A stretch of DNA of 64,000 nt, taken from NCBI RefSeq assembly GCF_040954835.1, contig NC_090716.1:5257605-5321604 (forward strand). The letters are read 5' to 3'. Of the stretch, positions 56,101 to 62,100 are shown piece by piece. The notes under the pieces were generated by a model that saw nothing but the letters and a program-made list of their open reading frames with translations, had not been told where the DNA came from and did no database searches. Position numbers and translations under genes: made by a program. The DNA comes from Lepisosteus oculatus. Lineage: Eukaryota > Chordata > Actinopteri > Semionotiformes > Lepisosteidae. Positions within the stretch are counted from its first letter, which is position 1. Every line of letters begins with the position of its first letter.

Positions 56101-59100
56101 TGCAGTTCCCCAGTGCCCTGGCTGTTTTCCAGTCAGGCCTTGTGCAATCTGGCCTTCCTAAAATTGATCTTTTATTCAATTGGTGAAGCACTCTCCACCT
56201 CATCTGCTGTACAGTGGGGCTGTTGGCTGTTAGACATCACCCAGGTGGGTGTTATACTTCAGTGGTGAATGAGGATAGTCCTCTCCTGTAAATAAACGGC
56301 TCTGAGGTACTTTAGAATGAAAAAGTGCTATTTAAGTGTAAGAAATTGCCATTAGTTTTCTGCAACAGACAGTTTCTTACTTCCATATTGCTCCATGTCT
56401 TAAGAATATGAACCTGTATGAAAACGTATAAATCCAGTTTCCATAGGCATCTTTTTTAAAGGTGGGTAGCTGCGTCAGCATGCGTAGGCTGCAAAGGAAC
56501 AAGTAATAGGTTTATTCCATGCTGAAAAAAAGAAGAAAGAGAACACAACGTTTCGGCCGTGGAGCCTTCTTCAGGTGTCAGGATATCTGTTCCAGGATAT
56601 TCAAAGCCAATGAGTTCAACATGAAACAGACTAATCTGTCTGGAAAGCAAACAATTACTTTACAAAAGCAGAAACTAACCATTAAGTATCCCCTGAACTG
56701 GTTGTACAGATTGTTTTTAAAGATTGTGTTATTGTTTATATTGCAGACGTTAAGACTGAGAAGAGTCCTTCGTCCATTCTTTCTTCTCCAAAACTCATCT
56801 CTCATGAAGAAAACCTTAAAGTGCATCAGGAGAACCCTGCCAGAAATAGCAAGGTAATTTTCATATTTCAGAGAATTCTAGTTGTGCTTTCTTAGCTCTA
56901 TATTAGCTCTCTATTGTTAGGGAAAGTGGAGTTATATTAATATTTTTTAATTTATTTAAACAGTCTCTTCATTCTCTTTTTCCAGTGTTTTTCTTCTCCT
57001 AGGCCTCCACTTGTGTCTCTTCACCATGTTTGGGATGCTGCTTTTCGCCAGGGGAAAGGTGAGCTTGGGATTTTGGTCTTGAACGACAGTCTTGTTGTGG
57101 ACTAACTAATGAAGGTGACATGGAGAGAATGTTGATGTTTTCTTTAATGAAGAAGTTTGTTGGCCTTAGAAATTCAGTCCTTCTAATGTGCAGTCTGCAT
57201 TAGAACTATTTGCATTGGTTTTCCAATCAAGGTCTAACTGCTCTTGAAGTGCATATGCCTTTATAACTCATCATATTGTTTCATTACTTTATCGCTAAAC
57301 CATATAACAAGCTTTCTTTAGTATTCTTCGTTGTCAGAGATAGTTTTACCACTGGTGTCTATTTAGTGCTGTGGTAGAGAAATGGGCAATGCTATGTCAG
57401 TCTAAGAGACTATTAAGAGCATTTTAAAATGTTAAATAACTTCAAAAAGTTCCCTAAAAAGTAGCAACTTACTGATTAAGTAAGTAAGTATTATTGGTGA
57501 CTTATAAGTTTTGTTCACATGTTGTTTGGGGGCGGGGGGTTTCACATTGGGAGGGATGCATGTCCCATTAATGTCATAGCAACACCAACTGGGAAATGTA
57601 TTGCATTGTTGATTTAAAATAACTAAATGAGGTTTTGAAGCATCCTTTTTTGTTTTGTCCAGGATCCAAATCATAATGGTGAATGGGAGTCTTATTTCAG
57701 AAACCTGCCACAGTCCCTCACATCTTTGCTTGTACTTCTGACCACTGCAAACAACCCTGATGGTGAGTTTGTTCTCATGAGGTCTGTTATCGTTTCAGGC
57801 TGGTTGGAAAAATCAGGCTCTTAACTGATTAAGATTTTCATTTAGTTATGTCAGTGCCACAGGCTGAAGGCCACAGGCTATTCCTTGATAATATAAACAT
57901 TCAGCACTGGTATATTTCAGCAATGTGCAACCAATTAGTAAGACAAAAACACAACAATATTAAGGCTTGACATGAATGTTTGTGCTATAACCTACTATCT
58001 GTAATGTGTAATCAAACAATGCTTCAGACTGTCATATTTTGTGGAAATGTTACATTTTGGAATGGGGAATAGTGTACAGACTTTTTTTCCGTGTACAGAT
58101 TATATAACTCTGCAGTGGACACAGAGCTTCACATACGGAAAGCTGTTAATAGTATCAGCATTGAATGTGCAAGAATCTAAGGAAGATATAAATTTGACCT
58201 GGCTCTTAATCCATTCCTAATGGTGGTTTCTGACATGCCCTGTAGTGTTGCTGAGAGTTGTGATGTCTTGGAAGTGTGTCCATAGCTCGTTGTAGAACTT
58301 TGTAGGGTTACACAGATTTTTATTTATGGCTTCTTTCTGTCAACAGTGATGATCCCAGCCTATTCAGTGAATAGAGGATATTCTATTTTCTTCATTCTCT
58401 TCTGTGGCTTTGGTGAGTGTGGATAATCTAAATCTACAGGGCAGACTCTTAAACCAGTGGAATTTTACATTAGATAGCATAGCTGTATTTTTCAAAATTA
58501 ATAACAATTGCTTGCATTTGTATTGTGATTTTCATCCTGAAAGGATCCCACAACAGTTCACATACAGGGAGGAGCCACTTAATTCACAACTGGAGTGCAG
58601 CATTCACTGCACTGTGTGCAGCAGATCACACAGAAAAGTGCAAAATTATTTAACCATTGGAATTAATGAAGAAGCCTTTAAGTAAGACAGATTGCCTTAT
58701 TCGAAAGACTGTGTCTCTGGTCACCATGCTGAGACATTGGTCCCAGCCTTACTTAGCTTCTGGATTGTGACAAGATTAAGTACAAAGCAGTAGCACTGCT
58801 GTCAATACCGTAGCTTTCAAAACTAGAGATTTTTGTTACCACTAAAACTGTTGATACTGTTGAAACGGAGTACCTGATTCATATGTACTCTGATAGATTG
58901 TTGCAGTATCTGACGTTCTGTACTGCATGTACTGTAAATAATGGAGATTATTTTTCATTGACTCCTTCCCATTTTCTTTTAGGGACGTATTTCTTGATGA
59001 ACCTCCTGACAGCCATCATATACAACCAGTTCAGGGGATACTTAATGGTTAGTTTCTGCTTTTGTAAAGTAATTGTTTGCTTTCCAGACAGATTAGTCTG

Positions 59101-62100
59101 TTTCATGTTGAACTCATTGGCTTTGAATATCCTGGAACAGACCATACAAGACTGGGTTTTTCATCATGATTTAAAAGGCTTAATAAGGTGCAAAACACAC
59201 CAGGAAGGTTTGCCAGATCTCATGGGAACTTTGACAGACCCGGCAGCATCTGTGATTTTGTGAACCCAGGGTGCCCCCTCTGCTAGGGATGTGCTCTTGT
59301 GTCTCATGGTTGTCTGTTTTTCTTTGAAGATCTCCATTCAAACATCCATCTTGAGGAGGCGCTTGGGTATCAGGGCGGCGTTTGAAGTCTTGTGCTGCCA
59401 GCGGCAGTCGAAGGCTGGCAGCACTCAACATGTGTAAGACAAGTCTCCACATCTCCAACACCTACAGTACTACCATGCTAAGCTTACACTAGACTTCCCA
59501 GTTGTGAAGCACTGGATGTTGTGAAGTCTCACCTTAATTTTTCAGAATCCCAATAGAGACTCCCAGTGGCTAGTTTCAGTGTCTTTTTTTGGAATTTTGT
59601 AAGCTGTTCTTTCTGTTTCCAGGGGTATTATAAACCTTAGTTTGTTGCAATATATTATCACAATGTGATCCACACGTTTATATCATGCTTAGAAAGCGCA
59701 GCATTAATTTTTTTTGAATAATTTGCAAAAATTGTACAATCATTTTTGTAGAAACAGGTTTCTGAAGATGTTGTGTAAATATATTCACTGTTTAATAGTC
59801 TTAAGTCTTCTGACACATCTTACATGAAGCTTGGGGATATGATACAATACATATAATAAGCAACAACAGTTTACTCAAAGCTTAGTTTGGGTGAGAAGAA
59901 GTCAGTCTAGTCATTTAGCAGTCTTTAATCAACTTTGGTGAAAATCTTCAAAAACGTGAACACACTAACTCAAGACCAAAGATACACAAGTGGCTGAAAT
60001 GAAGTATTGTTGCCATTAAAGCATTACATTTATCACTCACATCAAATCAACACATTGACAGGTCTTCCTCAATAACTTGTTTCTTTCTACATTCCGTAAA
60101 GTTAAAAGTAACAAAATACAAATCTATCAGGATCTGTTTTCTTAAAGCAAAATGGCTACAATATTAGTAAATGAACACCACAGAAATTTGTATAAGAAAG
60201 TAAACTTATGGAATAGAACAATGCAAAATGCTAAGACATTAGCACAGCAGTGTGTCTGAGTGTATTTGTTCATGACCTGGCCTCTCTTATGGTTTGGTTT
60301 TGTTGTGTTCTTCAAGTGAAACCATCCCGTCTGAGTTGGTGCTGCAGGTTGTCAGAAGGGTACAGATGAAGACCTACTGCAGAAAGGCCATCATCTGGGT
60401 GAGCAAAGATGTTCATTAATTAGTCGTCCTGTCTTGTGTCAAGTCGAAATTTGTGATTATTATAGGTAGCTCTTTGTATGTGAAGATATTTGTTTTCAAG
60501 GTAAATGACTTAATAGTTTGACGGTCTTTTTTTCCAGAGAATTCAGCAGTTTCCTGATGGATTTATCCCAGCTGAGGAATTTCAAAAGCTGTTTGATGAG
60601 CTTGATAAGGACCAGATCAAAGAGGTATGCAGTGTAAGAGTACAGTTATGCCTAATTTGAAAGTGCCTGACATGGTCTGTTTCCTGATATTTTCTGGAGC
60701 TCTGTTGCCCAGCCTTAACTTTTGAGTATCATGTTTCTGGAGTTACATATCTAGAGAGTTTTGTGTGAGAGCATGACAAGGTTGAATGAGTAAACCATGA
60801 TGGTAATGAAGTAACTTAGTAAGCATGCTTGGCTTTTGTTTTTCCAGCACCCTCCCATACCAGGATACAGCTACCCTATTCTTCAGAAGCTACAGTCCAT
60901 CTTCAGCCATTACTGCTTCAGTCTGTTGGGAAACCTAGTTGCCCTTGCCAACGTTGTGTGTATTTGTGTAAGTATGCAGGCAAGGTGCAATGCAAACAGT
61001 GCAAATGTATCCTAAAACGTGTTTTAGATTTCCATTTTTGCATGTATAATTCTCTGAATTACAAAGTAATGGCTTACGTCAGTTTGATTTGAAATATTGA
61101 GAGACTTCAACTTTAATTTATTTTTAATGTAAATGAAATGCTAGTCTGCGTCTAACTGGAATTTGGATGTGTGAAAGTAATTGTATTGCACCTTTGTCAT
61201 GTAGACTATTCTGGTGATCGACTCGGATAAAGCCCTTTCAGAACGAGACGATTACCTTCTGGGGGTAAGGAACACTGTCTTCCATTGCAAAACTTAAATT
61301 AATACAAAGATTTTTTTTGTTGGCCTGTAAAGGCACAATTCTGTTTTTGCCCTGGTTGAGAAAGTTATTTTCAGTAGGTTTGTTTTTTGGTTTTATTTTA
61401 ACATTGATTCAGAAAACTAAACATCATTCCATTTTTGTGGTTCATACATGTCTTTATGTTTGTAAGGATATAAAAATGTAATATCCCTATACCTTTCTTA
61501 AGAATTCTTCCATAAATGTTTGAATTCCTTGAACATGTATAGAACTTTCTGTGTATCTGTGGTTCTTGACAGATAATGCACTACTTGAATAAAGTTTCAC
61601 TCACTTTGAAGTCACATTTTAGATGTCTGCTTCTTCTTCTTTGGAGGCTCAAGTACTTTTTTCACTTTAGAAATGGGTTTCTCTGAAACTGAATGTAAAA
61701 CTGCCCATTTTGAAAAGTAAGATCAGCCTACAAATGTTTAAAACACCTTCCATTTTTTTTTCTTTTCAAAGGCTATGAATTGTGTCTTCATTGTATATTA
61801 CCTGCTTGAAATGGTTCTGAAGATATTTGCCTTTGGGTGGAAAGGCTACTTATCCTACCACAGTAATATATTTGATGGTCTTTTGACTCTGTCCCTCCTG
61901 GTAAGTATGTCCACATTGTTTTTTAACTTATTTGCATTGTGTTAATAGTTGAAAGCTTTGTTGATTCTACAGTCTAATCTCTGCAGTGAATCAAAACGTG
62001 GACACAATGGGAATTTAAAGACAAAAAACGGAGTTATTAATTCAATTAAGTTAACTCAGCATTTGGGGAGTGGGTCACTGGACTTAATATTTTTGTGTTT

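Follow-up and report, generated by a model that had tools for sequence, protein, structure and literature searches.

A young Penelope-like element insertion containing an inverted copy of nearby TPCN2 sequence in the gar Lepisosteus oculatus

How might a perfect inverted copy of an exon end, together with its splice donor, come to lie in another intron of the same gene? The question is raised by TPCN2 of the gar Lepisosteus oculatus in a 64,000-nt stretch of contig NC_090716.1 (positions 5,257,605 to 5,321,604; hereafter the window, whose own coordinates are used throughout), and the answer appears to involve a Penelope-like element (PLE). Positions 56586-56706 match the reverse complement of 59021-59141 at all 121 bases, and complementarity stops at both ends. 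The source arm, 59021-59141 on the plus strand, comprises the 27 terminal bases of exon 10 (58983-59047, plus strand, 65 nt, S6 region, read from the sequence and its TPC2 match), the GT donor (5' splice site) at 59048 and the first 94 bases of the following intron. Its copy runs opposite to the gene and stops 40 bases short of exon 6 (56747-56853, plus strand, S4 and S4-S5 linker region). Exon numbers 6-10 are labels of an earlier, sequence-only reading and are adopted as they stand; that reading had also described the perfect repeat, the position and content of its arms and the geometry of a duplex enclosing exons 6-9, all of which hold. The joined exon translation best fits TPC2, at 229.5 bits to solved TPC2 chains versus 72.4 for TPC3 and 71.7 for TPC1. 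The repeat-finder list for the window has two other inverted pairs of at least 40 nt, complementary at only 73% and 76%. In a search of the window's own assembly (1.2 Gb, 813 contigs) with a 301-base query containing the first arm, the 121-bp sequence was found, among the best-scoring candidates, at the two arms only.

The copy in the intron makes up half of a 252-bp insertion, and a young PLE in minus orientation makes up the other half. From left to right, the locus reads as a 9-bp copy of TTTTTAAAG (56453-56461, the last G of which may be the element's), the PLE terminal unit (56462-56582, minus strand), which runs up to the ...GTGTCAGG 5' terminus that other copies share, a 3-nt filler, ATA (56583-56585), the captured arm (56586-56706, minus strand), a 7-nt filler, CAGATTG (56707-56713), and a second copy of TTTTTAAAG (56714-56722), so that PLE and arm are bracketed together by an apparent target-site duplication. 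The arm begins 3 nt past the 5' terminus common to other PLE copies. The ATA filler and the CAGG before it both reappear inside the arm, and the junction-spanning 8-mer CAGGATAT, which occurs nine times in the window on both strands combined, recurs there at 56593-56600. When random position pairs were drawn in the window (pairs less than 300 apart skipped), 28 of 200,000 draws gave a 9-base match in a 16-base slot. Read in PLE sense, the order is a TPCN2 sense piece, then PLE. As in template-switch chimeras, the captured piece is enclosed by the element's target-site duplication (short, at 9 bp), has the element's sense and leaves its source intact. The inverted self copy common in the family is missing here, and the TPCN2 arm occupies its usual position.

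Judging from these features, the arm arrived as part of the PLE insertion. A free-standing inverted duplication, the origin proposed in the sequence-only reading, is not supported, and both simple inverted duplication and gene conversion were rejected on the basis of the PLE and target-site duplication around the arm. Full identity had been taken to suggest a recent event or gene conversion, and it is the first of these that survives: the arms show no differences across 121 bases, which limits their divergence to 2.4% at the 95% level, identity between the PLE half and other copies reaches 100%, and by this sequence evidence the insertion is recent.

The repeat directly left of the arm is interspersed and abundant. 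Many assembly copies match the PLE half at 98-100% identity, a 28-base pattern from the PLE 3' end occurs 8,540 times in the genome with at most one mismatch, and the exact 5' end ...GTGTCAGG with its preceding 26 bases occurs at 42 places. For classification, 138 loci were collected: eight from the 301-base-query search, 30 and a further 11 of the 42 exact 5'-end places (the 42nd being the window), and 89 from the first 100 listed 3'-end places, all on one contig, after excluding ten tandem-array members and one near neighbour. Three loci without a 3' end (L015, L017 and L029) and 15 repeats of one place were removed, leaving 120 distinct copies, most with some 40 nt of flank on the left and at most 460 nt on the right, in which local sources were sought for flagged pieces only. 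An inverted self arm, head to head and usually shorter, occurs with a target-site duplication (exact or with one mismatch) in 62 of the 120 and without a detected duplication in 13 more, while 17 have no inverted arm and end at the target-site duplication. Exact-match duplications were listed for 79 of the 120, TPCN2 locus included, and measure 12-16 bp in 68 of these 79, a few of the listed matches being false (e.g. L005). The inverted arms mostly begin near element position 26-48, and some copies have a TAGTTCA tail. An optional 3' tail and an inverted arm shorter by about 30-40 nt are expected PLE traits, and both are present. In a longer copy, L007, a 443-aa frame has the expected domain order of reverse transcriptase, then GIY-YIG endonuclease downstream, both as weak matches. 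From its sequence organisation, the repeat is classed as a PLE, the head-to-head arrangement with optional tail matching the published hallmark of these elements (PMC3846280, PMC11167929).

Other observations on the family concern its older copies and surroundings. A window search with the arm and its flank returned diverged copies at 41307-41431, 41210-41284 and near 63620-63770. The region 41210-41431 is an older head-to-head PLE copy, about 78-83% identical to the young one, and 63623-63766 is an older, partly inverted pair of PLE fragments that makes a small hairpin. Apparent tandem arrays lie at C1:6500655-6566384, where PLE ends are mostly about 6.4 kb apart (ten listed), and at C48:105182-218927, where three of four hits are about 6.0 kb apart. 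Repeats flanking L051, L064, L086 and L113 resemble SINE-like repeats known from ray-finned fish. By eye, the PLE minus sense may hold a hammerhead-like core (CUGAAGA ... GAAAC, with a possible ACAC/GUGU stem); a plain fold did not show a hammerhead.

Very probably, the arrangement is best explained by a PLE insertion with a template switch to TPCN2 sequence 2.3 kb away. The element would have inserted about 25-35 nt upstream of the TPCN2 exon, at an empty site that, without PLE or arm, would read ...TTTTTTAAAGATTGTG..., and the plus-strand cut end would have primed target-primed reverse transcription of PLE RNA. On reaching the 5' end of this template (...GTGTCAGG), the growing strand would have switched to TPCN2, copying 121 nt of its sense strand across the exon-10 donor, and would then have been linked to the cut's right-hand side. 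Because CAGGATAT recurs in the arm at 56593, copying of the second template may have begun falsely once, at the CAGG microhomology. The TPCN2 arm would thus sit where most relatives have a second, oppositely oriented PLE piece. We infer that this was one event and that synthesis followed this order. Template switching is favoured over twin priming on sense RNA because the TPCN2 and PLE pieces share the same sense, whereas twin priming on sense TPCN2 RNA would, by the logic set out for LINE-1 in PMC13174262, give the opposite orientation. Cleavage and extension of both strands of a target by a PLE from Anolis have been shown in vitro (PMC11167929).

Capture of local host sequence recurs in this family but is uncommon. 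Insertion bases belonging neither to the element nor to the target-site duplication were compared with the copy's own flanks in 70 copies, each with roughly 0.3-2 kb of flank and several kb at the window locus, and pieces with a local source were found at five loci. At the TPCN2 locus (L001), the piece is 121 nt, inverted, with its source about 2.3 kb away. L172 has an inverted piece of 54-62 nt, 89-91% identical to a source about 0.4 kb away. L139, which is L055 with flanks, has an inverted piece matching at 31 of 31 nt (38 nt at 97%) with a source about 0.2 kb away, and its 26-base core was found only at the insertion and flank in a whole-genome pattern search. L030 has a 24/24-nt piece in direct orientation from about 0.6 kb away, and L168 a 17/17-nt inverted piece from about 1 kb away. 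In the older L172, the element arms are 84 and 93% identical to the young unit; arms and captured piece have both diverged, as expected if they arrived together. At L055/L139, the host piece originates about 40-80 nt past the element 3' end and is flanked on both sides by the inverted element arm.

Five of 70 is not a rate, because the 70 copies were partly chosen for odd junctions: L001 was given, L139-L146 were selected for odd or unresolved junctions and L168-L176 for a non-T base after GTGTCAGG. The last group represents nine of the 11 places with such a base, the others being the window and L034, and local inverted pieces occur in three of the 11 (window, L168 and L172). Sources as far away as 2.3 kb would be missed elsewhere, because most of the 70 copies had less than 2 kb of flank. 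In the 120-copy set, L001 aside, the captures with a known source are an inverted one of at least 25 nt at L055 and the direct one at L030. A further 20 young copies (18 new and distinct, as L155 is the same place as L026, and L166 and L167 share a target-site duplication) contained no foreign piece with a local source; their duplications are 12-16 bp in 15 and 18 bp in one, with none found in four.

Non-element sequence of at least 25 nt before the target-site duplication was flagged in 11 of the 120 copies. Three of these are the local captures at L001, L055 and L030 (the last 24 nt, direct), and the others were set aside. L108 is not a local capture: in this old PLE copy, the target-site duplication also encloses a dispersed repeat of about 120 nt, possibly reflecting a switch to another repeat's RNA. 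L074 has an old dispersed repeat for which a near-identical source was not found. By inspection, L116 looks like a minisatellite target, and L013, L018 and L097 look mostly like element shards, while L005 looks like a false, distant target-site duplication. L048/L140 has a 25-nt perfect palindrome between two PLE arms, without a clear source. Four weaker matches of 13-14 nt (three in L140, one in L035) were not counted, three being target-site duplication and one an AT-rich 14-mer.

Several results weigh against the proposed insertion with template switching, or against its generality. The AT-rich duplication at the TPCN2 locus is 9 bp, shorter than the family's usual 12-16 bp, and the 7-nt filler stands between it and the arm. 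TTTTTAAAG also occurs seven times on the window's plus strand, giving a chance of about 0.0018 per 16-base slot, a less favourable control than random pairs because the word is common. An inverted local piece of at least 25 nt with a source was found in only one of 119 copies besides L001 (L055), and a rule of pure intrastrand fold-back fails because the L030 capture is direct. As for the element itself, the L007 frame matches GIY-YIG at E = 0.0018 and 18.9 bits, under the Pfam cut-off of 22.6, and RVT_1 at E = 0.11 and 12.7 bits, under the cut-off of 29.6, while an Rfam scan of 56300-56900 with hits admitted to E = 10 returned nothing useful for the insertion and no hammerhead.

If a template switch took place, what was the second template? 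RNA and DNA cannot be told apart here, because flanking DNA copied from the right cut end yields the same letters, and the unspliced copy is compatible with pre-mRNA and DNA alike. The chances are about even that the template was flanking DNA. In that case, TPCN2 DNA would have been copied during closure of the PLE insertion, either from the right end, still open, or by a repair polymerase of the host, with fold-back or a switch at microhomology as the route and no part played by TPCN2 RNA. The copy is unspliced and local, captures besides that at the TPCN2 locus occur in both orientations (three inverted, one direct), and the fillers at both junctions may resemble repair slippage. Against this, the orientation fits sense pre-mRNA, the PLE's own sense, although this is a one-in-two test. 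Somewhat less probable, but still a serious candidate, is the nascent TPCN2 pre-mRNA at the insertion site. The source lies in the same gene, in sense orientation, unspliced and across an exon-intron border, and RNA-templated insertions at breaks have been reported in a human cell system (PMC5110952); this variant does, however, rest on one genic case.

Two independent events, in which a PLE inserted and an inverted duplication arose later at its 5' edge, are improbable. The 17 of 120 copies that end at the target-site duplication without an inverted arm would be compatible with such a starting point, but the apparent target-site duplication is on the far side of the arm, and 3 nt separate the junction from the PLE terminus. 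An assembly or library chimera is less probable still, for although a perfect inverted copy at short distance is a known type of artefact, the arm lies 3 bases from a precise PLE 5' terminus shared with other copies and inside an apparent target-site duplication with the 9-bp repeat at both ends, and similar captures occur in other copies.

Inverted intronic repeats that flank exons promote back-splicing, and splicing is largely co-transcriptional. The TPCN2 locus has such complementary arms on either side of exons, but one of them holds an exon end and donor site. In the minimum-free-energy fold of 56500-59200, all 121 pairs form and the exon-10 donor is paired; the duplex amounts to -219 kcal/mol, and taking out the insertion costs the fold about 200 kcal/mol (the folded empty site retained one extra G). 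The 121-bp RNA duplex is thus predicted to mask the exon-10 donor. This fold speaks for the effects suggested in the sequence-only reading, namely circular RNA made of exons 6-9 or 6-10, ADAR editing or skipping of exon 10, but that the duplex causes them is rather unlikely. Splicing may remove the intron-5 arm before it can pair with the donor arm, and the exon-10 donor required for a 6-10 circle is itself paired. In this model, circular RNA and editing are possible, and masking of the donor seems no less likely than circularisation. Compared with masking, a circle that ends at exon 10 seems less likely, because the right arm includes the exon end and buries the donor. Since exon 10 is 65 nt long, skipping it would shift the frame, and it would remove what the TPC2 match suggests is the S6 helix of the first repeat.

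Aspects of this insertion have precedents. In descriptions of PLEs with head-to-head inverted pseudo long terminal repeats (PMC3846280, PMC11167929), the likeness extends to the 5'-side inverted partial copy, the abundance of young copies, the target-site duplications, which look AT-rich, an optional tail at the 3' end and, by eye, a possible hammerhead-like core. The TPCN2 locus differs in having 121 bp of a host gene from 2.3 kb away in place of an inverted self copy. Capture of host DNA by Penelope elements is itself already published: insertions of bdelloid Pen1 and Pen3a contain host sequence, introns included (PMC3846280), but these are spacers of 0.9-1.5 kb or a whole gene, for which the passages on these elements describe no source nearby, whereas the gar captures are short, mostly inverted and drawn from within about 0.2-2.4 kb. 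Template switching by retroelements is likewise published for LINE-1, where chimeras formed by template switching or twin priming acquire a second template at their 5' end in the course of target-primed reverse transcription, within the target-site duplication (PMC13174262); here, the element is a PLE and the flanking locus itself is the second template. Templated sequence insertions (PMC5110952) also insert a copied piece and leave the donor intact, but those described there come from distant regions, and the TPCN2 piece is of local origin and attached to a retroelement. Searches of the open-access literature turned up no Penelope insertions with short, mostly inverted pieces of their own flanks, and nothing closer than PMC3846280.

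A broader proposal, offered tentatively and at somewhat less than even confidence, is that integrating PLEs take their second template from the locus being entered, in the form of its nascent transcript or its flanking DNA, leaving inverted copies of nearby host sequence which, within genes, may form an exon-spanning hairpin able to silence a splice site. How PLE integration is completed is an open question, and its later steps are described as yet to be validated (PMC11167929). Local host pieces at 5' junctions would be footprints of the template that the polymerase reached, and the thousands of young PLE copies in one genome make such footprints countable. The TPCN2 locus also suggests a concrete route by which a single insertion would create a perfect long hairpin across a gene's exons.

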